NCBI GenBank assembly: GCA_013697635.1
Contig: JACCWM010000037.1
Coordinates: 1-64,000, forward strand
Length of the DNA stretch: 64,000 bases
Origin: Lujinxingiaceae bacterium
GTDB lineage: Bacteria > Myxococcota_A > Bradymonadia > Bradymonadales > Bradymonadaceae
Direction: 5' to 3'
The translations under genes and the position numbers were made by a program. Positions 23,087-37,398 of this stretch are shown here, piece by piece (positions within the stretch are counted from its first letter, which is position 1; each line of letters starts with the position of its first letter). The notes below the pieces were generated by a model. That model was given only the letters and a program-made list of their open reading frames with translations. It did no database searches and had not been told where the DNA came from.

Positions 23087-24526
23087 CTAGGTCAGGTTGA
23101 GGGGCACGGGCGACATGTTGTTCGCGGGCAAGCCGAAGCCGTTCTCGAAAGGGACGCCGGCGAGGCGGCCTAATGCAGCGAGCACGTCGGCGGTGTGGTA
23201 GATGCTGAGGTGATCGCCGTAGTTGAGGCCGCTTGAGGCCATGGAGCCGTCGCGGGTCTGGCCGCCGATAAAGACGCCGTTGCGATTTCTGGGGTCCACC
23301 AGGGGCGCTTTGATCCAGCGGCCTCGGCGCAGGCGCTGGCCGCCGCCGATCAGGATATGGAGCTTGTTGCGGGTATCGTGGTTGCCGGTTCCGACCTCGC
23401 CGGTGAGCATGATGATCGTGTTGTCGAGCAAGGTGGTGCCGCCGATGTCGGGGATCGTGTCCAGGCGCTGGGTGAAGGCGACCATCTTCTCGACGTACCA
23501 GCGCACCCAGCCCTCATACGAGAGACGCGCTCGCTCAGGATCTTCGTGGGACGAGCCATGGTGGGCCACGTAATGGTGGAAATCGTTCTCCCAGGGATTG
23601 CCGGTCTGGATAATTCCGTTCTTGTCGCGCCACTGCCAGTCGTCGATTCCCTCACCAAATCCCATGACGGCGACGCGGTGGGTGTCGGCCTGGAAGACCA
23701 GTCGAACCATATCGAGGTACTGATCGACCTGGGCGCTGAAGTTCGGGCTCTGCACCGGTCGGTCTGGAATCTCATCGAGGGAGAGCACGATCTCCGAGCG
23801 CGCTCGCAGGCGGTCTCCGAGCTGCGTGAAGGCATCGACGTAGCCTTCGAGTTTGGAGCGCTCCGAGCCGCGGACGTTGCGCAACATCCGGTCGGTGTCG
23901 CGCTTCATGAACTCAAAGATCCGATCGCGCACGGCGTCGCGCCCGGGCATCGGGGGAGCCAGGCCGTCGCGAATTGGACCGATGATGCCGTCGTAGGCGT
24001 CTTCTGGCTTGAAGTAGAAGTCTTGCACGCGCAGGGCGTCGTCAAAACAGCTCGGATTCGAGCGCCGTCCCCAGGAGGCGTAATTCGCCGTCACGCGCAA
24101 GACCTGAGAGCCCCAGTGGCGGGCAATCACGTGGTCGATCGAGGGGCCCATGGGCTCGGGGAAATGTGTCCCGAGCTGATCGGATCCGTGCTCATCGAAG
24201 CAGACCGCCGCGGTGAACATATCGGAATACGAGACGTCATGGGCGTTGCCCCAGAGCGTGCCGCGAGCGCCGTCGATGAACACACACTGATCTTTGATCG
24301 CCTCGAGGCCTTCGAGCGGTGCGGGGATGGTGAAGTCAAATTCCGAGCCGGTGAACGCGCGGCCCAATTCGAGATCGCGGCCCCAACCATGAGTAAGCGG
24401 CACCAAGAGCACACGAAGCGGCGCTTCGGGTTCATTGCCAAGCGCCACACGCGAGCCCATCAACGATGCGGCCAGGCCCGTTGCGCCCATTCCCTTCAAA
24501 AATGTTCTGCGATCAAACTTGGTCAT
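23087..24526 (-). CDS. DUF1552 family Tat-exported protein
   Basis: A 479-residue DUF1552 protein, a family common in Myxococcota and Planctomycetota and distantly related to the DUF1501/sulfatase-type fold; its reaction is unknown. A twin-arginine signal peptide is visible (DRRTFLKGMGATGLAASLMG). Conserved DUF1552 blocks include 'AHDVSYSDMFTAAVCFDEHG', 'GPSIDHVIARHWG', 'DEIPDRPVQSPNFSAQVDQY' and 'TTLLDNTIIMLTGEVGTGNH'. The start at 24526 has GGAGACC upstream and overlaps the DUF1592 stop by 4 bases (ATGA), so the two are translationally coupled. Confidence 0.9.
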   Translation of the reverse strand: MTKFDRRTFLKGMGATGLAASLMGSRVALGNEPEAPLRVLLVPLTHGWGRDLELGRAFTGSEFDFTIPAPLEGLEAIKDQCVFIDGARGTLWGNAHDVSYSDMFTAAVCFDEHGSDQLGTHFPEPMGPSIDHVIARHWGSQVLRVTANYASWGRRSNPSCFDDALRVQDFYFKPEDAYDGIIGPIRDGLAPPMPGRDAVRDRIFEFMKRDTDRMLRNVRGSERSKLEGYVDAFTQLGDRLRARSEIVLSLDEIPDRPVQSPNFSAQVDQYLDMVRLVFQADTHRVAVMGFGEGIDDWQWRDKNGIIQTGNPWENDFHHYVAHHGSSHEDPERARLSYEGWVRWYVEKMVAFTQRLDTIPDIGGTTLLDNTIIMLTGEVGTGNHDTRNKLHILIGGGQRLRRGRWIKAPLVDPRNRNGVFIGGQTRDGSMASSGLNYGDHLSIYHTADVLAALGRLAGVPFENGFGLPANNMSPVPLNLT

Positions 24527-26232
24527 GGGGTCTCCTTCACCTGGCGAGCCGTGAAACTCGGGGTCGTCACGATGGCTTCGACCAGCTCGTCGATCGCTCC
24601 GTTGCTCTTGTTGAACTTGGTGTAGATCGCTTCGCGCTCTTCGCGCCGGGGCGCATCTCCGAGCACGTAGGTGAAGAACTGGTCCGAGAGACACGAGCGC
24701 AGCGCCTCCGAGTTCGCTAGAGCGGCGATGTACTCGACGCTGTTATTGAACGCGAGCAGCTCCTGCCCCAGGACGAGCTCACCCGATGCGTCGATCTGCA
24801 CGTTCTCTTTTTCGACAAGACGGTAGCGACCGACGGCGTCGTAATTTTCATATCCAAAGCCTGCCGGGTCGATCATGCGATGACAGGCGATGCAGGTGGC
24901 CTGTGAGCTATGGCGAACGGAGAGCACCTCGCGGCTTGTCTCCTGAGCATCGTTGAACTCGGCCGGGACGTCGTTACGCGCCGAGATATCCGGAGGCGGA
25001 GCGCCCAGAGGAACGCAGAGCAGTTGCTCGAGGGTGAACACCCCGCGCTTGACGATGCCGCTGTCGAACGCGCCAGCATGGACGCTTAGAAAGGCCGGGT
25101 GGGAAAGCACACCCAGGCGCTGTGCCGGGTCCATCGCGATCACCTCGAAGCTGCCGCTTGCCACGACAGGCACACCAAAGAATGAGGCGCTCTGACTATC
25201 GACGTGAAAATTCGTGGCCTTGAAGGGGTCGAGCAGGCTGGCGCCTGGCATCGAGAAGATCTGCACGAGGTCACTTCTCACACCTTCGAACAAGGACGCG
25301 CGGGTCTCTTCGGTGAGGCCGTAGGCCGCCGCCTTGGTCTGAGCAAAGACCGCTTCGAGCTTTAGATAATCGATGAAAAAGGCAGCCAGTGCCTCGGCGA
25401 CTCGCTGATCGGCGGCCATACGATTGGCCTGAGCGATCAGAGTTTCACGATCGCTCAGCGCGCCCTGGGCGGCTAACGCATAAAGCTCGTCGTCGGGCGG
25501 TGCGTTCCACAGGGTATAGGCGAGCGCGCTGGCGAGCTCATAATCGGTCAGCGCCACGACTTTGCCTTCGCCCTGTCCAAGCTCGGTGCGATACATCGTG
25601 TGAGGGGAGACCAGCAGGGCCTGTACCAGAAACTCCGCCTGTTCCGCACGCGTTGCCGGCGCTTGAGCAATCTGCGCGCGGGTATTTAGGAGGTCGTTAC
25701 GCTCTTCGGTGGCCACCGGGCGCCGCCAGAGCTGATGGCCAATCTCATCGACGAACTGCCCAAAGCAGGTGTCGGTGCTCGCTGCCACACAATCGCGCAC
25801 GCTCGGCATGTTGATCACGGCGGCCCGTGCGATCCCCTGTGTGGACGCGTAGATGCTCTCGACGTTGATGTCATTGACACGCAGATTTGAGGGGCTGTTG
25901 TTCATGCCGATCGTCGGGGAATCGTCTCCAAATCGCGGCAAATCCCCGCGTTCAAAGACATCGCCCAGGGCCTGGCGCAGCGTATTCTCATACTGCTTCG
26001 AGGTCAGGCGACGAAGATGCGCCGTCGTCACCTCCACCGCCCCCGGCTCCCCCGGTTTTGGTTGAGGCGACGTGTTATTGCTTGCAGGATTTGTCGCCGG
26101 AGGCCCCACCTGATCCTGCAACTCTTTGTCAAACAAGAGCTTTCCCTCACAGCCCACGATTCCAAGAGCTATCACCGCACTGATCGCTAAAATAGCGTAC
26201 CGGTGAGAGTTTGGTGTGCATTCAATGCTCAT
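24523..26232 (-). CDS. DUF1592/DUF1588/DUF1585 domain lipoprotein
   Basis: A 569-residue predicted lipoprotein (lipobox ALGIVGC, Cys about 28). The usual domain order of this family is visible: DUF1587 ('HLRRLTSKQYENTLRQALGD'), DUF1595 ('GHQLWRRPVATEERNDLL'), DUF1592 ('YELASALAYTLWNAPPDDEL'), DUF1588 ('VKRGVFTLEQLLCVPLGAPP', then 'ATCIACHRMIDPAGFGYENY') and DUF1585 ('SCLSDQFFTYVLGD' to the end). The CIACH is a possible haem-c site. Function is unknown but these proteins nearly always pair with DUF1552, as here (4-base overlap). Confidence 0.9.
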   Translation of the reverse strand: MSIECTPNSHRYAILAISAVIALGIVGCEGKLLFDKELQDQVGPPATNPASNNTSPQPKPGEPGAVEVTTAHLRRLTSKQYENTLRQALGDVFERGDLPRFGDDSPTIGMNNSPSNLRVNDINVESIYASTQGIARAAVINMPSVRDCVAASTDTCFGQFVDEIGHQLWRRPVATEERNDLLNTRAQIAQAPATRAEQAEFLVQALLVSPHTMYRTELGQGEGKVVALTDYELASALAYTLWNAPPDDELYALAAQGALSDRETLIAQANRMAADQRVAEALAAFFIDYLKLEAVFAQTKAAAYGLTEETRASLFEGVRSDLVQIFSMPGASLLDPFKATNFHVDSQSASFFGVPVVASGSFEVIAMDPAQRLGVLSHPAFLSVHAGAFDSGIVKRGVFTLEQLLCVPLGAPPPDISARNDVPAEFNDAQETSREVLSVRHSSQATCIACHRMIDPAGFGYENYDAVGRYRLVEKENVQIDASGELVLGQELLAFNNSVEYIAALANSEALRSCLSDQFFTYVLGDAPRREEREAIYTKFNKSNGAIDELVEAIVTTPSFTARQVKETP

Positions 26233-26624
26233 GGCCTTACCCTGGTCGATTTTTCCCACTCTCTTGATTGCGAACGGCTGGGCGTCTGTATCCAACATAC
26301 GGTTTGGCCAATGCACCTGTCAATTTAGGGCCTCACGAGAGGCCGAGTTGCCGCCATCGACGAAGTGGTGATGAGCCCCCCTCCCCACCCGAAGAGTTAA
26401 TCCATGGCCAGACTATCCGCACAACCATTCTTTGGCGTCAACGCCCGCGTCCTCGGCGAGCCGATCTGGCTACGGGGTGAGGAGCATGTCGGCTCTTTCG
26501 TCATGCAATTCGACGAGGGCTTCTCGACCTCGGCGACAGCGGGTGGTGTGCGACGACCGACGGGCGCAAGGCCCGCGGCCGCCTACCAGAAGTTAAGCCT
26601 CCATTTTGGGCAGAGTGATTGAGA
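26233..26624. other. Intergenic gap carrying a repeat fragment
   Basis: This 392-base gap separates the lysyl-oxidase-like gene from the DUF1592 gene, both on the minus strand. It contains copy C of the dispersed repeat. A 72-codon plus-strand frame from 26404 to 26622 reads through the repeat and has no recognised domain; I regard it as doubtful. No clear promoter was identified for the DUF1592-DUF1552 pair. Confidence 0.5.
26545..26580 (+). repeat. Dispersed GC-rich repeat, partial copy C
   Basis: About 35 bases ending in CGACGGGCGCAAGGCCCGCGG match copies A and B nearly perfectly. The flanks do not match, so this is a truncated copy. Confidence 0.65.
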
Positions 26625-28172
26625 TCAGGGATTGTCCTCCCCGTAGCGCAGATAGCCGCGGCACTGCCAGCGCTGCTCGTCGCTGGTGTACTGCTCGCGG
26701 GGCATGGTGCAGTCGAGGGTGGTAGCCGCTGAGGCGCAGATCTCGGCGGAGGACGGTGGGGCCTCGATGAGCGTGCGTACAAAATTGTTGTGGGGGTTGG
26801 CCTCGAGCAGGAGGTGGTCTGGGTCGACGCGCACCTCGAGCCAGTGGGGTCCGGCCGCATCGGACTCCTCGGGGGTGCCGAGGATCAAGAGTTGGCCGGG
26901 CAGGTGCTTGCCGTAGGCGTCCTTCCAGCCCTGGGTGATGCCCTGGCGCAGACTATTGCAGGTGGGAGGATCGAGGTAGGCGCGGCGGCCGTCGAAGATC
27001 ACCTGGATCTCCTCGTCGAAGGGCGACAGATCCATCAGGCAGAAGGAGATTTTCTTGGCCGTCTGGCGATAGCAGGAGGCCTCGCGGGGCGTGCCGTATT
27101 GGCACTCGGCGCGTGGCTCGACCAGGGCCATGTCCAGCCAGCCCAGGAAGTGGAAGTGCTCGTGGGGGATGTGGTACTCGAAGCCGCCGTCGCTCAAAGT
27201 GCGCTCGTCGAGGCGGCCATCGGACCAGTCGATGGTCTGCAGCACCTGCTCCTCGCCATTGACCTCGGCGGCGCGCAGGTGCAGGCCGCCGGTGCCGACG
27301 TTGGCCGCGCCGACGGTGACGCGCAGGCCGATCAGGCGCTCGTGGCGGTGGCCGGCCGGCAGCAGCGTGCACTGCCAGGCGCGGTCGTCGAGGTCGCGGG
27401 GATCGATGATCAGGTCCGGCAAGCGGGGATGTGCGACGTCTTTTTTGGCCAGCGCGAAGTCCATCTGGGCGCAACGCTCGGCGCGGGAGCGATCGGCCTC
27501 GCAGTGAGACGGGGCGCAGTCGGCGAGGTAGCCGGCGTGGTAGCGGTAGAAGATCCCGGGGTAGTAGCCGGGCTTGTCGATGCGGATGCGGTACCAGCGA
27601 TCGGGATCGAGGCTTGTCCTGGAGGTGGCGTCGGGACAGCCGTCAGCCTCGGGAAAGAGGGCGTAGTTGGAGGCGCCAAAGGGCACAGCCGCGGTGAGCA
27701 CGGCGTGATCAGGGCTGTCTGCGCGAAAGTTCAGGGCCCACTTCGTCGTCCAATGCGCAAGCTCAGAAGGCGGCCAGGCGTAGAAGCGCAGGGTGGCGTC
27801 CTCAATCCATTCGTGATCAGCGAGAGCAGTGACGCCGCCGCGGGTGATCTCGAGGACAATGCTGGGATCAGGATCGGGATCGGGATCGGGATCAGGATCA
27901 GGATCAGGATCAGGATCAGGATCAGGATCAGGATCAGGATCAGGATCAGGATCAGGATCAGGATCAGGGTCGGGGGCGGTGCAGGAGCCGCAATTTACGG
28001 CGCGACTCACCTGGCAGCTGTCGCGAGTTGCGAGCAAGCCACACGCCTGGTTTCTGTCGGCGCAGAGCTCGGCGGCCGTCTCGGGGACGCACTCGCAGCC
28101 GGCGGCGAAGAAGGTGATGCTCAGCAAGAGGAGCAGGGCCAGGGTACAGGACATCCGTGTCTCGATTTTCAT
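26625..28172 (-). CDS. Lysyl-oxidase-like secreted lipoprotein with (Asp-Pro)n linker
   Basis: A 515-residue exported protein. Signal peptide with lipobox FAAGC (Cys about 26), then a Cys-rich segment (about 26-67). An Asp-Pro repeat of about 17 units (68-102) leads into the main domain. Near residue 335, 'EYHIPHEHFHFLGWLDMALV' has the H-x-H-x-H copper-ligand pattern of bacterial lysyl oxidases, and surrounding cysteines (AECQYG, ASCYRQ, SFCLMD) fit the family. Such enzymes oxidise protein lysine side chains, but activity here is unproven. It lies 19 bases behind the haem lipoprotein gene and is probably the last operon gene. Confidence 0.8.
   Translation of the reverse strand: MKIETRMSCTLALLLLLSITFFAAGCECVPETAAELCADRNQACGLLATRDSCQVSRAVNCGSCTAPDPDPDPDPDPDPDPDPDPDPDPDPDPDPDPDPDPDPSIVLEITRGGVTALADHEWIEDATLRFYAWPPSELAHWTTKWALNFRADSPDHAVLTAAVPFGASNYALFPEADGCPDATSRTSLDPDRWYRIRIDKPGYYPGIFYRYHAGYLADCAPSHCEADRSRAERCAQMDFALAKKDVAHPRLPDLIIDPRDLDDRAWQCTLLPAGHRHERLIGLRVTVGAANVGTGGLHLRAAEVNGEEQVLQTIDWSDGRLDERTLSDGGFEYHIPHEHFHFLGWLDMALVEPRAECQYGTPREASCYRQTAKKISFCLMDLSPFDEEIQVIFDGRRAYLDPPTCNSLRQGITQGWKDAYGKHLPGQLLILGTPEESDAAGPHWLEVRVDPDHLLLEANPHNNFVRTLIEAPPSSAEICASAATTLDCTMPREQYTSDEQRWQCRGYLRYGEDNP
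27865..27966 (-). repeat. Hexanucleotide microsatellite inside the lysyl-oxidase-like gene
   Basis: Seventeen tandem GGATCA/GGATCG units on the plus strand occupy 102 bases (14 GGATCA and 3 GGATCG). On the coding minus strand they specify alternating Asp and Pro. As units are 6 bases, copy changes keep the frame and only alter linker length. Confidence 0.95.
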
Positions 28173-28191: not shown

Positions 28192-30831
28192 TCAAAGGGA
28201 GTTCAGGAACTGAATCAGGTCGTCGAGCTCTGCGGGGGAGAGGTGGCTGGTGCCACCGTGGGAGTCGCTTACGCCATCGGCTTCGTTGTAGCCGTTTTCG
28301 CCCGCCGCCAGGGCTGGATGGTGGGGGGTGGCGAGGACTTCGCGCAGGCTGCGAGCGCGGCCGTCGTGCAAAAACATGGGGGCGCGGTCCCAGAGGCCGA
28401 CGAGCGCGGGTGACTTCAAGCGCAGGTCGCTTTGATCCTGTTTTACGCCGGGGAAGCGGGCCAGAAACGCGGCGGTGACAAGATCGAGGTTGAGGCCGCT
28501 GCTGTCGCGGTTGGGCGTGATCACCGGCCCGAAGAGCAGCGGCATGGCAAGCGGATTGTTCGAGGCCGTGAGGCCAAAGCTCGGCCCCGGATGACAGGCG
28601 GCGCAGCCCTGGCTTGGCGAGTGGAATAGGCGCCGGCCCCGCTCGACGCTGGCCGTCGTCGCCGGGTTGGGGTTAGGCAGCAGCGCCGGCTCCTGGATCA
28701 AGAAAAGCCCGACGAGACGGGTCATGCCGGCAAAATCGAGGGGCGTATCGATCGCTCGCCCAAAGCTGTGGCGGCGGCCGATGAGCCCCTCGGCCGTATC
28801 CTGAAAAGAGGCGTCGCGGCTGGCCAGCGAGGCGAAGTTCTCCCGGTGGGCGAACTCCTCGAGCACGGCCACCGTCGTGTCCACGTCCATGGCGCCCTCG
28901 AGAAACCAGGGCAGGCGATCGAGCAGGCCGCGGTTGTCCATGGTGATGCGCGAGCCGCGGGTATCGGCCAGCAGCGGCATGCTGAAGGCCTTGGCGATGC
29001 TGCCGCGATCGAGGTGGCAGTGGTTGCAGGTTTGGTCGCCGTCGGTCGAGAACTGAGCACCCGAGAAGTAGAGCAGCTCGCCCAACTCGGCGTCGGTGGC
29101 CGGAAAGGCGGCCGGGGGATCGTCGTCGAGCGCGATCGTGTGCACGACTTGAAAGCGCTCCAAGTCCACGACGCTGACGGACTCGCCGAGCCGGTTGGCG
29201 ACATAGGCCTCGGCATGTGTGGGGTGCAGGGCGATCGCTCGCGGATCAAAGCCCGTGGAGACGATTGGGCCAGCGAGCAGGCCGCCGCCCTGCTCGACCG
29301 AGAAGCGCTGCAGCTCGGAGGAGCCGGCGTAGGCGACGAGCAAGCTCACGGTGGTGTCCGATGATCTGGCCAGCGCCATGGCCATGGGCAGCGCTCCGCC
29401 GACGATCCACAGCGCGGGATCGGGCACCAGGTGGCCCAGGCGCGCGTCGTCAGGGCCGACGTCGCGAAAATCGCGACAACAGTAGCTGTCCGAGGTGTAG
29501 CGCACCGTCGGGTAGAGCGTGGCATCCCTGACGATCCGAAAGACGGCGAGCTCGTTTTGCAGGGCCTGAAAGCCCTGGTTCGGCGAACCGGTGGTGGGCG
29601 TGGTGTAGCGATGGGCGTCGGGCTCGGTGCCGGGCGGGTGGTGCGTGCTCTGGGAGAGCGTGCTCACAAAGAGCTGGCCGCCGACCGTGGCGAGCCCGAG
29701 CGCCGGAGCACCGAGCTTGAGGCGACTGATGCCCGCCGGGGCGCCAAAGTCCGTGGTCGCAGGGTCGTCGTCGAGATCAACCTCGAAAAGCGTCTGCGTG
29801 TCGATTACGGCGACCGTCAGGGCCGCTGGCGAGGCGACAAAGAGCAGCCTGGCGTCATCGGAGAGGCTCAGGGCCGCTGGGTTTGTGCCCGCGGGGATCG
29901 TCTTGATCGCCATCAAGCGCAAGCCTTTGGTCGCAGCCTCGACCTCGAAGACCTGCACGGCGTCGCGCCAGCGATTGGTCACGTAGAGGCGAGCGCCGTC
30001 GGGGGAGAAGAGCGGCGTCGTCATATAAAAGTCCGACGCGAGGCGGCTCACCTGCGCAGTCTTCAAATCGAGCACGCTCAGGTAGTTGGAGAAGCGATTG
30101 GCCACGACCAGAAAGCGCCCACCCGGGTGCACGGCCACACCCGTTGGGCCGCTGCCCACCTTGTGACGGCGCACCAGCGTGCGTGTGGCGAGGTCGATCT
30201 CGGCGAGCTCTCGGGCCGGCCGGTCCACCGAGCCTTGAAGGGCGACGAAGAGTCGCGAGCCCTGCGTGTCGACGGCCAGCGCGACCGGTTTGTCGCGCCG
30301 AGGTTGGGGCTCAAAGCGTGGATCGTGTGGCCCAAAAGGATTGGACCCGGCTTGAAGGTCGCGAAACGGCCCGCCCTCCTCTCTCAATGGTTCTTCCCCC
30401 ACCCAGTCAGCGAGCGCGCGGTATTCGGGATCGCCGCGCGTGAGAAAGATGTCGCCTCCGGCGCGGTGGCGCACGCCGGAGATCTGCTCGGCCAGCGGCT
30501 TTTGCAGCAGCAGCGGCCCGCGGCCCTCATCGCGCGCAAAGGAGCGGGCGCGGTCGTAGTTGCCCTGCACCTCGGCGGGCGTCAAGTCGTGGTCGAGGAA
30601 GACGTCGGCGGCCTGCAGGCGGTGTGCACCCTGCGCAAAGAGCGCGAAGGGCCGGTCGGCGCGGCCGTGGCAGGAGGGGTTCGCGCAGCGATTGAGCAGC
30701 AGGGGCTGCACCTCTTCGACGAAGCGCTCGAATGAAGGGCTTGGCCAGGCCGGCGCGGGCGCAGGCGCCTCGGCCGGGGCGCAGCCCGTGGTCAGCAAAA
30801 AGAGCGCGATCATTGCCCGGATTGCAGTCAT
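28192..30831 (-). CDS. Multihaem lipoprotein: beta-propeller plus cytochrome-c-peroxidase-like domain
   Basis: An 879-residue predicted lipoprotein (lipobox LLTTGC, Cys17). A CX4CH site, C49-H55 (CANPSCH), lies near the N-terminus. Residues about 130-550 form a YVTN/lactonase-like beta-propeller ('GVAVHPGGRFLVVANRFSNY', 'LVAYAGSSELQRFSVEQ'). The C-terminal part resembles di-haem MauG/cytochrome c peroxidase proteins, with CNHCH ('DGDQTCNHCHLDRGS') and CAACH ('PSQGCAACHPGPSFG') sites. It should act in the periplasm or outer surface in electron transfer. Its start overlaps the stop of the upstream 951-residue gene by 4 bases. Confidence 0.85.
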   Translation of the reverse strand: MTAIRAMIALFLLTTGCAPAEAPAPAPAWPSPSFERFVEEVQPLLLNRCANPSCHGRADRPFALFAQGAHRLQAADVFLDHDLTPAEVQGNYDRARSFARDEGRGPLLLQKPLAEQISGVRHRAGGDIFLTRGDPEYRALADWVGEEPLREEGGPFRDLQAGSNPFGPHDPRFEPQPRRDKPVALAVDTQGSRLFVALQGSVDRPARELAEIDLATRTLVRRHKVGSGPTGVAVHPGGRFLVVANRFSNYLSVLDLKTAQVSRLASDFYMTTPLFSPDGARLYVTNRWRDAVQVFEVEAATKGLRLMAIKTIPAGTNPAALSLSDDARLLFVASPAALTVAVIDTQTLFEVDLDDDPATTDFGAPAGISRLKLGAPALGLATVGGQLFVSTLSQSTHHPPGTEPDAHRYTTPTTGSPNQGFQALQNELAVFRIVRDATLYPTVRYTSDSYCCRDFRDVGPDDARLGHLVPDPALWIVGGALPMAMALARSSDTTVSLLVAYAGSSELQRFSVEQGGGLLAGPIVSTGFDPRAIALHPTHAEAYVANRLGESVSVVDLERFQVVHTIALDDDPPAAFPATDAELGELLYFSGAQFSTDGDQTCNHCHLDRGSIAKAFSMPLLADTRGSRITMDNRGLLDRLPWFLEGAMDVDTTVAVLEEFAHRENFASLASRDASFQDTAEGLIGRRHSFGRAIDTPLDFAGMTRLVGLFLIQEPALLPNPNPATTASVERGRRLFHSPSQGCAACHPGPSFGLTASNNPLAMPLLFGPVITPNRDSSGLNLDLVTAAFLARFPGVKQDQSDLRLKSPALVGLWDRAPMFLHDGRARSLREVLATPHHPALAAGENGYNEADGVSDSHGGTSHLSPAELDDLIQFLNSL

Positions 30832-33683
30832 TGATGTTCCTCGAGCAGGTAGTGGGCGCCGGTCTCGATCCAGCGCACCAGAACGAGCCGCTCCTCGTCG
30901 CTGAGGCCGAGCGCGGGGTGGGCGATGAGCGCACGCGGGGCGTCGAGCTCGCGCTCGTAGACCAGCTCGATCAGATAGCTCGAGCGGGCTTGAGTGTGCG
31001 TCACGTCGACGTACTTTCGAGCGCCACCGGAGCCGTAGCCCTCGACGAGCAGCGCGCCGTAGGCCGCTTGCACGGGCTCGAGGACGAGGCCCGTGCCGGT
31101 CGCGCCGTGACAGCCGGCATTGGCGCAGCGCTGCTCGATGATCGGCCAGACGGCGCGCGCAAAGTCGATCTCCTGGCGCGTCGCGTCTGTGAGCACTACA
31201 GGCGGCCGGGGCAGGCGCGGATTGCGGTCGACGTAGCGGGCCAGTGTGACCGTCGCCCCGGTGAGCGTATCGGTTGGACCGAAGAGATCGGCCCCCTTGC
31301 CAGACGCCGCGCCGTGACATCCGCCGCAGCGCGCATCGTAGAGATGGCGGCCCACCGACTCCTTGAAGTGCTGGCCCGGCCAGTTGAAGAGCCAGCGGTT
31401 GTGCTGAACGCCCAAGGCCATGCGATCGGCGTCCAAGAGCTGGGTTCGAAACGCCACGCCCGCTGGCACGACCACGTGCACCGAGTGATCGTCGTAGAGC
31501 GCGACCTCGCCCAGGATGCGCGCGCCGGTGGCCTGGCCCGCGTGCCTGGGAGCATGAGGCAGCGCCTCGACAAAGCGCATGTAGCGCGCGTCTGTGCGAA
31601 AGCGCTTGGGCCCGGTCGGGAACAGGCTCTCCAAGATGCCCTGGTTGACCGGCGCGTCGTCAATGCTCACGAGCGAGGCAGCCAGCGGGTCGAGCACCAC
31701 GGCGCTCGGGCCGCCGAGCGCGCGCACGATCACCGGGCGCGCCGAGTGTACGGAGAGCCCGCCCGCGCGGTCCTCGACCCAGACGTCTCGCGCGATCAAG
31801 TTGGGCAAACACGCGCTGGTCACGCAGCCCGACGTGGCCTCCTCAAAGCGCAGATGAACGATGCGAAAGCGCGGGCGCGCCTCGGGATCGCCCAGATCGA
31901 TCGGGCCCGGCGCCCAGGCCGCGAGGATCGAGCCGTCCGCGAGCGCCGCCGGATCGCGGTAGATGCCGCCGACCGAGCGCCCGCGGGCCGAGACCGAAGG
32001 ATCGAGCACGCGAAAGTTGCGCACCGCCGGCGCGACGGCGGCCTTGTCCACAGGCGTTGCGGCCTGTAGCTGCGGCCCCAGATTGCGATCGATTAGGCCG
32101 AGGCGACCTCCCGCCCAGACGTTGTCCGGGTCGCCGGCGATCGTGAGCGCGCGCCCGTCGGGAAGCTCGACGAACTCGAAGAAGAGGCGCTCCTCGGGCG
32201 TGATGCCGAAATAGATGTGGTAGTCGACGTGCAGATCGAGCGGAAAGGAGAAGCCCACCGTCTCGTCCGCGTCGCCGAAGATGCGCCGATGGGCGAAGAC
32301 CAGGTAGCCCTGCATCGCCCCGACGTTGAAGCGGCGAGGATTGAGCTCGGGTCCCGGCCCAAAGGTGAGGCGCTCGGGCGGCTGGCCCGGGCCCGCCAGC
32401 CGGTAGATCGACATGTCCCGCGTCTGCAGCCCGTCGGCCAGCGTGTCGTGGCGGTTGGAGACAAAGTAGATCTCGTGCGCGCTGGCGTAGACGGGCATGA
32501 CGTTGGCCAGCACCGCCCCCGAAGCGAGCCGGGCCGGATCGGCGGTGAGCGCGCGCGCCTCGCCGGTGGCCAGGGTCAGCTCAAAGAGCTGCAAGCCCTC
32601 GGCCTCGGAGCGGCGCATCGCAAAGGCCACGCGCAGGCCATCGGGCGAGACGGCCGGATGACGGATATCGGCCGCGCCGGCGTGCAGGTGGGCCGTGAGG
32701 TTCTGGTCGACGCCGTCGGGCCCGGCAGGCGTGCGCAAGATGATGTCGCTGCCCGGCACAAAGCTGGACTGGTCGAAGCCCAGGCCCGCTTGTACCGGGC
32801 CTCGCACGTAGATCAAGGCTTCGACGCCGCGCCCTGCCCGCTCGCCCAGGGCCGCGCGCTGCTCGAGCGTCGCCCAGGCCAGGATGTCGTCGGTGGCCGG
32901 GTCATCCCAGCCCGTGAAGAAGGTGCGGTTTCCTCCACGGTGGGTGATGCCGCCGGCCTCCAGCGGCAGCCCTTTTTTGAGCAGGCGGCTCTGAGCGGCG
33001 TCGCCGTCGAGCGAGAGAAAGGGCAGCGAGGCCTCGTAGTTGTGGCGGGTCATGGCCCTACTCAACGCGATCTGGCCTTCGGCGGTAACCACGCCGGGAT
33101 CGAGGCGGTAAGGGACAAAGGATTCGGGGCCGTGACAGGCCGCGACCGCGCAGCCACGACTGAGCAGGTGCGGCTGGACGCGCTCGGCGAAGAAGCGCTC
33201 AGCGGGCCCGGCGCGCTCGCCAGCCCGATCCTGGCCAGCCAGATCCTCGCCGCCCCCCTGCTCGAGCGCAATCCAGGCTCTGACGGCCTCCAACCCGGGG
33301 TCCGACGGCGAGAGAAAGTTTGTGCCGCCGCCGTGCGGCAGGCCGCCGTAGACCTCGGCCATGGGCTTTCGCACGAGCGAGGAGAAGCGTGGATTGTCCG
33401 CCGTGTTGATGAAGCGCTGGCTCGCAGCGCGGGCCGCCTGCCAGTCCAAGATCCGCCCGGAGAGGTCGGTGCGAAGGTAGAAGCCGCCCTCTTCGAGCGA
33501 CTCGCCACGCGCTAATCCCGCGTTTGTGTAGCCGTGGCAGACCGCGGCAGCGCAGCGGGCCTCGAGCACAGGGAGCACATCCTCTCGAAAGCGCTCGCCA
33601 GCCGGGTCTGAAGCCGTCGTCTGGCACCCCACGAGCGCCAAGAGTGTCAGGATCGCGAGGACAGCGGCCGCGCGCGGGGTCAT
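30828..33683 (-). CDS. Tetrahaem-motif beta-propeller lipoprotein with flavinylation motif
   Basis: A 951-residue predicted lipoprotein (lipobox ALVGC, Cys20). Four haem-c-type motifs are visible: CAAAVCH (44-50), CAVAACH (about 180), CGGCH (786-790) and CANAGCH (853-859); three are CX4CH. The centre (about 290-720) has TolB/PD40-like propeller strands ('HPAVSPDGLRVAFAMRRSEA') and may resemble the middle part of HzsA-like proteins. Residues 805-811 read DTLTGAT, fitting the ApbE target consensus Dxx(S/T)GAT, so Thr811 could carry covalent FMN. Start and stop overlap both neighbouring genes by 4 bases. Confidence 0.85.
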   Translation of the reverse strand: MTPRAAAVLAILTLLALVGCQTTASDPAGERFREDVLPVLEARCAAAVCHGYTNAGLARGESLEEGGFYLRTDLSGRILDWQAARAASQRFINTADNPRFSSLVRKPMAEVYGGLPHGGGTNFLSPSDPGLEAVRAWIALEQGGGEDLAGQDRAGERAGPAERFFAERVQPHLLSRGCAVAACHGPESFVPYRLDPGVVTAEGQIALSRAMTRHNYEASLPFLSLDGDAAQSRLLKKGLPLEAGGITHRGGNRTFFTGWDDPATDDILAWATLEQRAALGERAGRGVEALIYVRGPVQAGLGFDQSSFVPGSDIILRTPAGPDGVDQNLTAHLHAGAADIRHPAVSPDGLRVAFAMRRSEAEGLQLFELTLATGEARALTADPARLASGAVLANVMPVYASAHEIYFVSNRHDTLADGLQTRDMSIYRLAGPGQPPERLTFGPGPELNPRRFNVGAMQGYLVFAHRRIFGDADETVGFSFPLDLHVDYHIYFGITPEERLFFEFVELPDGRALTIAGDPDNVWAGGRLGLIDRNLGPQLQAATPVDKAAVAPAVRNFRVLDPSVSARGRSVGGIYRDPAALADGSILAAWAPGPIDLGDPEARPRFRIVHLRFEEATSGCVTSACLPNLIARDVWVEDRAGGLSVHSARPVIVRALGGPSAVVLDPLAASLVSIDDAPVNQGILESLFPTGPKRFRTDARYMRFVEALPHAPRHAGQATGARILGEVALYDDHSVHVVVPAGVAFRTQLLDADRMALGVQHNRWLFNWPGQHFKESVGRHLYDARCGGCHGAASGKGADLFGPTDTLTGATVTLARYVDRNPRLPRPPVVLTDATRQEIDFARAVWPIIEQRCANAGCHGATGTGLVLEPVQAAYGALLVEGYGSGGARKYVDVTHTQARSSYLIELVYERELDAPRALIAHPALGLSDEERLVLVRWIETGAHYLLEEHQ

Positions 33684-34192
33684 GGCGCGACCTCCTCGTC
33701 GAGGAGCTCGCGGATCTGGGCCTCGATCAGGGCCTTGTCGGCCTCGCGAAAGCCAACATGGCGGTAGCGCACCTTGCCTGTGCGATCGATTAAGTACGAG
33801 GTCGGCATCGTCGGCGGGCCAAAGCGCGTCGCGGCCTTGTGCCCGGAGTCGAGCAGCACCGGGAAGGTAAGGCCGGCCGCCGCGACAAAGCGCTCCACGG
33901 CCTTGCGGTCCTCGTCCACGCTCACGGCAAGCACCGTGAAACCGCGGGCCTGGTGTTGGGCATAGAGCGCGGCGAAGAAAGGTAGAGACGTGCGACACGG
34001 CGCGCACCAGCTCGCCCAGAAGTCCACGAGGACCACCGTGCCCCGATAACTGGCCAGCGCCACGGTCGTGGCGTCGAGCGCTTCGAGCTCGAGCACGGGG
34101 CGATCGCCGGGCGCCACCTGTGCCTGCGCCCAGCGCGCCGACACCAATACGAGCAGCGAGGAGATGAGGATGATCAGGATGCGCGTCTTCAT
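33680..34192 (-). CDS. TlpA-like periplasmic thioredoxin-fold protein
   Basis: A 170-residue exported thiol-disulfide protein. The signal peptide (about 1-24, ending WAQA) is followed by an AhpC/TSA-TlpA fold with 'VVLVDFWASWCAPCRTSLPF' (redox pair WCAPC), the cis-Pro region 'GPPTMPTSYLIDRTGKVRYR' and 'VGFREADK'. Such proteins commonly reduce cysteines of apocytochromes or metal-site proteins in the periplasm. Within this operon the likely clients are the haem-motif lipoproteins or the CGC-tailed DUF4266 protein. It overlaps both neighbours by 4 bases. Confidence 0.92.
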   Translation of the reverse strand: MKTRILIILISSLLVLVSARWAQAQVAPGDRPVLELEALDATTVALASYRGTVVLVDFWASWCAPCRTSLPFFAALYAQHQARGFTVLAVSVDEDRKAVERFVAAAGLTFPVLLDSGHKAATRFGPPTMPTSYLIDRTGKVRYRHVGFREADKALIEAQIRELLDEEVAP

Positions 34193-35277
34193 GGCACAAA
34201 CTCCATGGACAAGGTGAGGATGAACAGGTGACCGAGCATTCGGTCTCGAACCGCGTACTCCGCGAAGCGGTAGAGCGTGGCGTCGTAGCTCGTGCTCAGC
34301 ACGAAGCCTTTGGGCCGAAAATCCAGGCGCAGACCGGCGCCAAACGAGTTCATCGTCGAGAGCCGGTGGTCGCCGCTGCGCAAGCCCACCGGGTCGACAT
34401 AGTGTTGCTGATAGAAGTGGGCTCCCTGCTGCGTGTAGCCGCGCAGGCGCAGGCGCAGGCGCACCAGGTCCTCCCAAAGCGTTTGCCAGGCCTCGAGCCG
34501 GGCGGTGTGACTGCGCATGCGCCAGTCGTCCAGGTACAGCCGGTAGGCCGCGCGCAGGGCCAGGCTCGGCGTCGCCGACCAGATCCCGAGCAGCTCGCTT
34601 GCGTGGCGCGTGCGTTGTGCGGGCACGGCCTCGCTCATGACCAGCGAGGGCCGCTCGAGATCGCGCTCGTAGATGGGCACCAGCCGGTAGGGATTGGCCT
34701 GATAGCCTTTGCGATGCTCCACGCTGTAGACGATGTGGCCCACGAGGCGCGGGCTCAATATCTGGGTCCAGGCCAGCTCGCCAGCGACGATCGTCAGCTG
34801 CTCGTCAAAAGCGCTGACGTCGGCGCGCAGGACGCGATCCAGCCCCAGGCGAGCACCGACGCCCAGCGTCGCGTGGCGATCAAAGAGCTCGCGCGAGGCC
34901 GAGAGCGCGCCGGTGTGGCTTTGATAATCCGGCTCCAGACTCAGGATGTAGCGGCTACCCAGCTCGGTGCGAGGCAGCGGCCGCCAGCGCACGGCCGCCC
35001 CACCCTCGTGGCGCGTCTCTTGATACTGCGTGGCGCGGGTGATCGTATCGGGCGCCGACATCAGCGGCGTCGCCGCGGTGATCACGTCCGTCGCCCAGTG
35101 TGTGGAGACATCGAGCGACTCGCCAAGCGGCGCGCTGGCCACGAGCTGCGGCGAGCTCACCTCGACGCTGGCATCGCTAAAGCCCTGGTAGGTCGCGGCC
35201 ACCCGCGCGCGCTCGCTCGTCGCGCAGCCGCTGGCGACGAGCAGCAAGCACACGCCGATGCCAGCGCTCAGTTGCAT
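34189..35277 (-). CDS. DUF3570 family outer-membrane-type lipoprotein
   Basis: A 362-residue protein with a lipobox (LVASGC, Cys about 18) and a body of alternating beta-strands that look like an outer-membrane barrel. DUF3570 features are seen at 'SVEHRKGYQANPYRLVPIYE', 'RTRHASELLGIWSATPSLAL' and 'AAYRLYLDDWRMRSHTARLE'. Function is not established for the family. DUF3570 genes often stand beside DUF4266, thioredoxin-fold and apbE genes (family knowledge from memory), the very arrangement here. The start overlaps the DUF4266 stop by 10 bases. Confidence 0.85.
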   Translation of the reverse strand: MQLSAGIGVCLLLVASGCATSERARVAATYQGFSDASVEVSSPQLVASAPLGESLDVSTHWATDVITAATPLMSAPDTITRATQYQETRHEGGAAVRWRPLPRTELGSRYILSLEPDYQSHTGALSASRELFDRHATLGVGARLGLDRVLRADVSAFDEQLTIVAGELAWTQILSPRLVGHIVYSVEHRKGYQANPYRLVPIYERDLERPSLVMSEAVPAQRTRHASELLGIWSATPSLALRAAYRLYLDDWRMRSHTARLEAWQTLWEDLVRLRLRLRGYTQQGAHFYQQHYVDPVGLRSGDHRLSTMNSFGAGLRLDFRPKGFVLSTSYDATLYRFAEYAVRDRMLGHLFILTLSMEFVP

Positions 35278-35477
35278 CCGCACCCTCCCCCACCGCCCGA
35301 GAGGCCGCCGGAAGCGCCCTCGCGTGTCGCCTCGAGCTTGCCCAGCGCGCCGGCCTCGTCCGCGTCGACGACGATCTGCATGCAGTCGTGGGCCAGCCGG
35401 CCGCGCTCCCAGGGTTTGACACCCGCACAGCCCCAGGCCAGCGCCCAGACGAGCAATATCGGGATCCATCGCGCCAT
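35268..35477 (-). CDS. DUF4266 small lipoprotein with Gly-rich CGC tail
   Basis: A 69-residue protein. The signal peptide ends in lipobox ALAWGC (Cys about 17). The mature peptide has the DUF4266 signature VKPWERGRLAHDCM and ends in REGASGG...GGGGCGCN, a glycine-rich tail with two cysteines. The tail may bind a metal or act as a redox or modification site; this is inference. It is placed between apbE (10-base gap) and the DUF3570 gene (10-base overlap), so it is certainly part of that unit. Confidence 0.88.
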   Translation of the reverse strand: MARWIPILLVWALAWGCAGVKPWERGRLAHDCMQIVVDADEAGALGKLEATREGASGGLSGGGGGCGCN

Positions 35478-35487
35478 GATCTCCCCC

Positions 35488-36540
35488 TCAATCGCGGTTG
35501 GGCTCGAAGAACTGACCGAAGCCGCTCGATGTGTGCACGCGCATATCGGGGCCGATCACCAGCGCCTCGACCCCGGCCAAGCGCTCGACGAGCTTCAGCG
35601 CCTCAGCCGGCCCCAGCACAAAGAGGCCCGTGGCCAACCCGTCGGCCAACATGGCGTCGGGCGCGATCACGGTCACGGCCACCGAGGCTCGCGCGACCTG
35701 GCCCGTGGTCGGATCGATGATGTGGTGGTAGCGCTCGCCATCGAGCTCGAAGTAGCGCTCGTAATCACCCGAGGTGACCACAGCCCCCGCGCTCAGATGC
35801 AGCCGCCCGAGCAGCGCCCCTTGCTGGCGCGGATGGGCAACCCCAACCGACCAGGGCCGGTCGATGCGCTGGCCTTTGAGCCGGATGTCCCCCCCACCGT
35901 CGACGACGTAGTCGGTGATGCCATGGGCCTCCAGCACGGAGGCTGCCCGGTCCACACCGTAGCCCTTGCCGATGCCGCCCACCCCGATGCGCGTCTGCTT
36001 CGCCCTCAAGAAGATTGTGCGCGCCTCATTGAGCTCGATGCGGCGATAATCGATATGCGCCCGGCACTCGCCCACCTCCTCCATCGAGGGAATGCGCCGC
36101 TTGCCCACCGACCACAAATGCCCGCAGCTCGCAAAGGTGATATCGAAGGCGCCCCTTGTCAGCGCCGACAACGCCACGGCCTGCTCGACCACCGCATAGA
36201 GCTCCGGCCCCACAGCCACTGCCTTGAGCCCGGCCTGCCGGTTGACCTCACTGATCTCGCTCGTCGACTGCCACTCGCTGATCAGCGCCTCGACTCGCCC
36301 GATCTCCAGCAACGCCGCCTCCACCGCCCCAGCCGCCACCCGCTCATCGACCGAGACGACCTGGATCTCGAAGCGCGTACCCATCAGCGCCTGCTCGCGA
36401 CGCAGCACCTGGGCCACCGCCGGCCCGCCAGCAGATGAAACCGCGGCGGCTGGCCCACTCGCCAGCTCGCCGCGCACACCGCATCCAGTTAGAAAACACA
36501 CAACAACAAGCGCTACAGAAAATCGACACAATCCATCCAT
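35488..36540 (-). CDS. apbE: FAD:protein FMN transferase
   Basis: Transfers FMN from FAD to a Thr/Ser in client proteins outside the cytoplasm, using Mg2+. The 350-residue lipoprotein (lipobox FLTGC, Cys about 20) shows the ApbE landmarks MGTRFEI (about 53), 'VGGIGKGYGVDRAASVLEAH' (FAD/Mg site), 'VVDGGGDIRLKG', 'SGDYERYFELDGERYHHIID' and 'DAMLADGLATGLFVLG' (295-310). It is the first gene of the operon. Its probable client is the 951-residue lipoprotein five genes into the operon, which carries a matching motif. Confidence 0.95.
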   Translation of the reverse strand: MDGLCRFSVALVVVCFLTGCGVRGELASGPAAAVSSAGGPAVAQVLRREQALMGTRFEIQVVSVDERVAAGAVEAALLEIGRVEALISEWQSTSEISEVNRQAGLKAVAVGPELYAVVEQAVALSALTRGAFDITFASCGHLWSVGKRRIPSMEEVGECRAHIDYRRIELNEARTIFLRAKQTRIGVGGIGKGYGVDRAASVLEAHGITDYVVDGGGDIRLKGQRIDRPWSVGVAHPRQQGALLGRLHLSAGAVVTSGDYERYFELDGERYHHIIDPTTGQVARASVAVTVIAPDAMLADGLATGLFVLGPAEALKLVERLAGVEALVIGPDMRVHTSSGFGQFFEPNRD

Positions 36541-36786
36541 GGCCTCGCTCCAATCCCGTATGATTTAAGCTACATACCGGAATGTGCGTGCCCTCGAGGC
36601 CGACGATATGATCGAGATCATATCCGGACTTTTCTCCTGTGGACGCGACTTGCCCGGGTAACGGGGTGCCGCTCCGGGCATGCATGCCCGAGCTACGTGT
36701 GCCCTGTTGTAATCGCACCGATGCGTGTACCGTCACACCACGGCCCGTTTGTGATACTCAGGAGCGCTCATCCAAGGAGAACAGCT
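36541..36786. promoter_or_regulatory. Divergent promoter region with Crp/Fnr-like palindrome
   Basis: This gap separates apbE (minus) from a secreted protein gene (plus). GATATGATCGAGATCATATC at 36605-36624 is a perfect 9-2-9 inverted repeat whose core TGAT-N4-ATCA equals the Fnr/Crp half-site core. It is centred 74 bases upstream of the apbE start. A TATGTA hexamer (36576-36571, minus) could be a -10, though spacing to the box is not ideal. A second palindrome, CGGGCATGCATGCCCG, is at 36675-36690. Confidence 0.5.
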
Positions 36787-37398
36787 GTGCGAGCAAAATA
36801 CGCAGCGACAATGTTGTTGGTTTTATTGAGTTTAACCCTTGGCACCACGCTGGCTATGGCCGATGAGGAGCCGGGAGCGGCCAGGTCCGACAAAGCGACG
36901 GCGGTGCTGGAAGCCATGGAGTTGCCGGAGGCTGCCCACAACCTGCGCCAGGCCGGCGTGCCCAACGAAGACGTCAAATTGGCCCTCGAGTCCTTGAAGG
37001 CGAGTAAGAAAGAAGCGTCCGAGGAGCGCGCAGCACGGCGTTCGGCACGTGTACTCAAGGCCGAAGTCGAGACCGCTCGCCAGCTTGGCCCGATGGACGG
37101 CTTCGGAGTCTTTGTCCGTGAGCAGGTCAAAGACGGCGTGCGCGGCCAAGAACTCGCCCAGGCCATTCGCGACCACCGGGAGGGACGTCGACCCGACACG
37201 GCCGGCGAGGCTGGAAAAGCGGGCGAGGCTGGAAAAGCGGGAGTGGCTGGAAAAGCTGGAGTGGCTGGGAAAGCTGGAAAGTCTGGAGAAGCGGCCGAGA
37301 CTGAAAAAGAAAAAGACGGCGTGGATGGCGTGACTGGAAAAGGCGGCGGGGCTGGAAAAGCTGGACAGGCTGGAAAAGCCGCGCCAGCCCGTCCCTAA
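36787..37398 (+). CDS. Secreted protein with collagen-like Gly-Xaa-Ala tail
   Basis: A 203-residue exported protein. The GTG start at 36787 has AAGGAG 8 bases upstream and gives a clean signal peptide (about 1-25, ending TLAMA). An earlier ATG would bury the signal. Residues about 30-135 are charged and probably helical ('NLRQAGVPNEDVKLALESLK'). From about 137 the chain is a run of Gly-X-Ala triplets (GEAGKAGEAGKAGVAGKAGV), resembling collagen-like repeats without proline. Function is unknown. A lipoprotein gene follows after 51 bases. Confidence 0.7.
   Translation: MRAKYAATMLLVLLSLTLGTTLAMADEEPGAARSDKATAVLEAMELPEAAHNLRQAGVPNEDVKLALESLKASKKEASEERAARRSARVLKAEVETARQLGPMDGFGVFVREQVKDGVRGQELAQAIRDHREGRRPDTAGEAGKAGEAGKAGVAGKAGVAGKAGKSGEAAETEKEKDGVDGVTGKGGGAGKAGQAGKAAPARP

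Follow-up and report, generated by a model that had tools for sequence, protein, structure and literature searches.

A conserved, predicted flavinylation motif beside a haem site in a hydrazine synthase alpha-like lipoprotein encoded with ApbE

An operon of a Lujinxingiaceae bacterium encodes both ApbE and a 951-residue lipoprotein in which a likely ApbE target site follows a haem motif, raising the question of whether this haem protein is itself flavinylated. We name the protein HzsL, and by the window we mean the whole stretch of DNA analysed, 64,000 nucleotides in length (Table 1). Translation of the minus strand confirmed the sequence DTLTGATVT that the original prediction had singled out, and DTLTGAT (residues 805-811) matches the published ApbE consensus D-x-x-[S/T]-G-A-[S/T] exactly, as had been claimed. 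The haem motif said to precede it was also found, with the site starting 15 residues past CGGCH. ApbE requires only the heptapeptide and moves FMN from FAD to its last Ser/Thr (PMC12052999), which in HzsL would be Thr811. Our computational analysis finds this motif deeply conserved, in an operon with apbE, in a protein of hydrazine synthase alpha fold, and linked across homologues to flavinylation genes.

Table 1. Features of the operon and of HzsL, with positions in the 64,000-nucleotide window
Feature	Position	Strand	Description and support
apbE	35488..36540	-	FAD:protein FMN transferase, lipoprotein; PF02424, E 3.5e-83
DUF4266 gene	35268..35477	-	Small secreted protein, C-terminal CGCN; PF14086, E 2.1e-15
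DUF3570 gene	34189..35277	-	Known ApbE substrate class; PF12094, E 5.1e-34
DVITAAT	35068..35088	-	DUF3570 residues 64-70, first predicted flavinylation site
DTITRAT	35029..35049	-	DUF3570 residues 77-83, second predicted flavinylation site
tlpA	33680..34192	-	TlpA/ResA-like thiol-disulfide oxidoreductase; profile matches
hzsL (name used here)	30828..33683	-	951-aa lipoprotein, hydrazine synthase alpha subunit homologue; translation, profile, fold
CAAAVCH	33534..33554	-	HzsL residues 44-50, haem-type motif; invariant in alignment
CAVAACH	33132..33152	-	HzsL residues 178-184, haem-type motif; invariant in alignment
CGGCH	31314..31328	-	HzsL residues 786-790, haem alpha-I equivalent; aligns with 5c2v_A
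DTLTGATVT	31245..31271	-	HzsL residues 805-813, predicted ApbE motif D-x-x-[S/T]-x-A-[S/T]-x-[S/T]
Thr811	31251..31253	-	Predicted FMN acceptor of HzsL; Ser/Thr in 44/44 informative homologues
CANAGCH	31107..31127	-	HzsL residues 853-859, haem alpha-II equivalent
propC	28192..30831	-	879-aa lipoprotein; N-terminal CX4CH domain, 7-bladed propeller, CCP/MauG-like dihaem domain
Lysyl-oxidase-like gene	26625..28172	-	19 bases downstream of propC

The operon runs apbE-DUF4266-DUF3570-tlpA-hzsL-propC on the minus strand, followed by a lysyl-oxidase-like gene. Its junctions from apbE to that last gene are four overlaps of 4-10 bases and two gaps of 10 and 19 bases, which bears out the earlier placement of apbE in the same operon as hzsL. 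The lysyl-oxidase-like gene, whose product bears a lengthy Asp-Pro repeat close to the N-terminus, is conserved beside propC in two family members. Just upstream of apbE lies a divergent ORF with collagen-like GKAGxAG repeats (36697-37398, plus strand), and downstream of the operon are a PSCyt3/PSD-domain protein of the DUF1588/DUF1592 type and a further gene (23087-26241, minus strand). ApbE and HzsL both carry a lipobox (Cys20 in HzsL) and, as lipoproteins, share the extracytoplasmic side. The same four kinds of gene, ApbE-DUF4266-DUF3570-thioredoxin, form clusters described by Meheust et al. 2021 (PMC8238504), where co-expression and mutation showed DUF3570 to be flavinylated on two sites; here they are joined to HzsA-like and HzsBC-like cytochromes. 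Because a protein of this proven substrate class is encoded alongside, the presence of apbE in the operon is not enough to identify HzsL as a target. The two proteins share the operon and the relaxed site chemistry D-x-x-[S/T]-x-A-[S/T], but DUF3570 (PF12094) belongs to another family, has two sites where HzsL has one and, in the window, contains no haem motif.

HzsL is a homologue of the hydrazine synthase alpha subunit and not the enzyme itself. A profile built from 45 HzsL homologues matches hydrazine synthase alpha over three stretches (E 8.8e-44), and the best PDB match of the AlphaFold model, by a wide margin, is 5c2v_A (Z 34.1, 573 aligned residues). The HZS_alpha middle domain (PF18582, residues 721-778) scores only marginally, at 26.7 bits against a gathering cut-off of 26.6, and is backed by the fold match. 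The propeller, middle domain and two C-terminal haem sites of HzsA from Kuenenia stuttgartiensis (PDB 5c2v chain A) all align with HzsL. CGGCH is invariant in all 45 aligned rows, and many homologues have CxxCH in place of CANAGCH. Three motifs of HzsL besides CGGCH are of the CX4CH type (at 44, 178 and 853), two of them in an extra N-terminal region that sets HzsL apart from HzsA. That HzsL is not the synthase follows from its equivalog score, 31.6 against a cut-off of 800 bits, and from the missing Ser590-Tyr591 pair (CHGAASG versus CHYGSYRG in 5c2v_A), Tyr591 being the axial ligand of haem alpha-I in HzsA. The same two-residue gap at Tyr591 characterizes the non-anammox HZS homologues of clades I-III (PMC12758564), in which alpha and beta-gamma homologues are encoded together, like hzsL and propC. 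A planctomycete homologue, L146, keeps the GSYRG stretch of HzsA and lacks the ApbE motif. The original prediction had also likened the site to the FMN site of NqrC/RnfG; this holds for the heptapeptide consensus and not for the protein, since a Pfam profile search of HzsL gave no FMN_bind (PF04205) match at a threshold as loose as E 0.1, and we reject an NqrC/RnfG-type domain.

The neighbouring PropC resembles a hydrazine synthase beta-gamma fusion. It matches the NCBIfam models hydrazine_beta and hydrazine_BC below their cut-offs, its CCP_MauG score is 22.9 bits against a cut-off of 25.6, and its propeller aligns with 5c2v_B at Z 31.9. Other YVTN propellers score as high, so we do not claim HzsB as the unique match. 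Given this likeness to the beta-gamma partner, HzsL and PropC look like a hydrazine-synthase-like complex in which the two would presumably pair physically. We rejected PropC as a further flavinylation substrate, since no motif column is conserved in 52 rows.

Taken by itself, the motif match in HzsL is weak, because the strict form D..[ST]GA[ST] arose in 1 of 150 shuffles of HzsL (0.67%) and the relaxed form, which leaves the Gly position free, in 6.7%. Homologues were gathered through whole-genome searches of the window's phylum and by scanning named genomes for a haem-motif pattern that abuts the flavinylation site without containing it. Residues were counted over 45 aligned sequences, 44 of them informative (one has no letters in the loop) and 28-50% identical to HzsL of the window. 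Asp805 is invariant (44/44) and position 811 is always Ser or Thr (41 Ser, 3 Thr); Ala810 is present in 43 of the 44, Ser/Thr in 42 at position 808 and in 39 at position 813, while positions 806, 807, 809 and 812 vary. The invariance proposed for Asp805 and Thr811 therefore stands for the Asp and for the hydroxyl residue, with the qualifications that the acceptor is usually Ser and that Gly809 is not conserved, occurring in only 10/44 (Gln in 12, Thr in 7, Ser in 5 and Met in 4 of the others). Homologues with another residue there include L096 (DFVTQAS) and the distant L119 (DIVTEAS). Among 77 HzsL rows, 62 have the relaxed motif at a single shared alignment column and no other column has it more than once; the motif was found in Myxococcota, Gammaproteobacteria, Planctomycetota, Acidobacteria and Maribacter. 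A second locus set, made up of phylum matches from protein searches chosen without a haem-motif scan and sharing a few genomes with the first, carries it in 34 of the 37 rows that bear the late CxxCHG. Judged from these alignments, conservation puts the motif far beyond chance.

The relaxation at Gly809 is, on the same alignments, the main weakness of the predicted flavinylation, being looser than in known ApbE targets. It is softened by the operon-mate DUF3570, whose sites are relaxed as well: in the window both depart from the consensus that HzsL matches canonically, and DUF3570 sites have mostly Ala, Gly or Ser, with some Arg and Thr, at the Gly position. In an ApbE model substrate, changing Gly to Ala left about 50% flavinylation and changing Asp to Ala had a minor effect (PMC12052999). 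The AlphaFold model of HzsL has a mean pLDDT of 89.9, and residues 805-809 are its only segment below 50. They lie in a loop after the haem helix, outside the propeller (whose matches span approximately 286-654), so the burial in a propeller strand that had been named as counterevidence is not seen. A nearly invariant yet poorly modelled loop is suggestive, as it is what would be expected of a covalent cofactor missing from the model.

We think it probable, from the computational evidence, that ApbE attaches FMN to Thr811 of HzsL, a periplasmic or outer-membrane-anchored haem protein, and that the flavin relays electrons with the haems. The most serious alternative, which we regard as unlikely, is that DUF3570 is the operon's only ApbE substrate and that in HzsL the motif is an ancestral structural feature of the HZS-alpha-like haem domain, capping the loop or contacting a haem propionate, and ApbE-like by coincidence. 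The demonstrated flavinylation of DUF3570 in the clusters of PMC8238504 and the poor conservation of Gly809 would suit such a reading, but the residues that are conserved are those that ApbE recognizes while their neighbours are not, and the loop is the one segment predicted poorly, which would be unexpected of a structural element.

The gene neighbourhoods of homologues bear on the same choice. Counting ApbE, DUF3570, DUF4266, NqrB-like and FMN_bind as flavinylation genes and accepting three close variants (DVTARAS, DIATASS) as the motif, all 51 informative homologues with such a gene in the locus carry it; the only seeming exception is L084, which is truncated by a contig end. A motif-less homologue beside flavinylation genes, the other counterevidence that had been named, was not found among the informative rows. 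Conversely, five homologues that have lost the loop and kept the rest of the fold (L077, L128, L135, L137, L139) have no flavinylation gene in the locus, which speaks against DUF3570 as sole substrate. L146, which is HzsA-like, and a group of approximately 800-aa tandem paralogues likewise lack both. On the tree this co-loss amounts to 2-3 concordant independent contrasts and no discordant one (p 0.25-0.5), too few independent events to establish it statistically. In L135, L137 and L139 the haem alpha-I CxxCH has become CxxCM, lost together with the flavinylation-like motif. The closely related G015 (L038/L077) lacks the motif, but we do not count it as a motif-less homologue beside apbE: its apbE lies on another contig, no DUF3570 was detected in its genome, and the approximately 430 bases upstream of hzsL hold no recognisable TlpA or DUF3570 gene.

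Loci of the Myxococcota repeatedly combine varying subsets of tlpA, hzsL, a small cytochrome, DUF4266, DUF3570, propC and apbE. Against flavinylation of HzsL, a large clade of this phylum retains the motif where the stretch examined shows no flavinylation gene, as a structural element would predict, and no ApbE was seen in the motif-bearing MAG L131/G391. Many Myxococcota (L161, L163, L167, L170 and many of L154-L193) carry tandem HzsA-like genes of approximately 1040 and 800 aa, the longer copy with the flavinylation-like motif and the shorter without, and no ApbE in the stretch examined. In a distant clade, mostly of other phyla, hzsL and propC are accompanied by NqrB/RnfD-like or FMN_bind genes and often by apbE. 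There the motif is kept and ApbE is present with no DUF3570 in the clusters, which argues against DUF3570 as the explanation. Known substrates encoded in clusters with hzsL (DUF3570, FMN_bind, NqrB-like) could alone account for apbE. We dropped the idea that HzsL is the sole possible substrate in three-gene clusters, since NqrB-like or FMN_bind genes occur there. Clusters in several phyla (L118, L119, L122, L124, L125, L134 and others) combine HzsA-like and HzsBC-like cytochromes with ApbE and an NqrB/RnfD-like membrane protein, an arrangement that is apparently undescribed; in L124 the NqrB/RnfD-like protein is followed by ferredoxin domains, and FMN_bind proteins sometimes occur in such clusters.

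Within the window's genome (99.45% complete) there is one ApbE, in the hzsL operon, and a single DUF3570, and searches for FMN_bind, NQR2/RnfD and DUF2271 found none. HzsL and DUF3570 are therefore the only candidate substrates among the families searched (FMN_bind, NQR2/RnfD, DUF2271 and DUF3570). Genomes with HzsL nearly always have ApbE, which also counts against DUF3570 as the only substrate: in the window's family it is present in 5/5 genomes with HzsL, one entry being a fragment, and in 1/16 others (p 2.9e-4, relatedness ignored), and among good genomes of the phylum in 65/66 versus 132/169 (relatedness again ignored). Phylum-wide, this co-occurrence alone is modest, as ApbE is found in 316 of 377 genomes.

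Much less probable is that the site binds a metal ion or a non-covalent flavin through its conserved Asp, Ser and Thr; such residues could ligate a metal, and zinc lies near haem alpha-I in hydrazine synthase alpha (PMC12758564), but the loop has no conserved His or Cys and the link with apbE would be left unexplained. An accidental heptapeptide without function, conceivable at the strict shuffle rate in a genome of thousands of proteins, is already contradicted by the single shared column and by the invariance of Asp805 and Ser/Thr811 at this level of divergence, and we give it practically no weight.

The predicted flavinylation of HzsL suggests a mechanism wherein the exported protein, periplasmic or anchored in the outer membrane, would receive FMN from FAD on the Thr811 hydroxyl through the ApbE of its own operon. 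Thr811 would sit in a flexible loop, 21 residues past the last residue of CGGCH, and the tethered flavin could pass electrons between the haems of HzsL and PropC on one side and the remaining carriers of the operon on the other, a path and direction that we infer. Those carriers would be flavinylated DUF3570 and the TlpA/DUF4266 thiol proteins in the window; in distant relatives the role would fall to NqrB/RnfD-like and FMN-binding proteins.

Across the literature covered, the classes of ApbE substrate that are named comprise FMN_bind, NqrB/RnfD, DUF2271, DUF3570, Flavodoxin_4 and FMN_red, with no c-type haem protein of the HzsL fold among them. Among the papers on flavinylation and ApbE that a literature search listed, none mentions hydrazine synthase; the eLife and mSystems flavinylation papers, in the passages covered, describe no HzsL-type substrate, and that of PMC8238504 mentions neither hydrazine nor PF18582. 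PMC12758564 names Planctomycetota and Desulfobacterota for the non-anammox HZS homologues, and its main text mentions neither flavin nor Myxococcota. We lean towards a broader picture in which widespread HzsA-like and HzsBC-like haem complexes, whose alpha subunit would hold covalent FMN next to haem alpha-I, form a flavo-cytochrome module fed by DUF3570/thiol or NqrB/RnfD-like proteins in at least five phyla. If true, HzsL would add a new class to the substrates of ApbE and establish a flavin connection among the evolutionary neighbours of the anammox enzyme; confirmation would tie protein flavinylation to hydrazine synthase relatives outside anammox.
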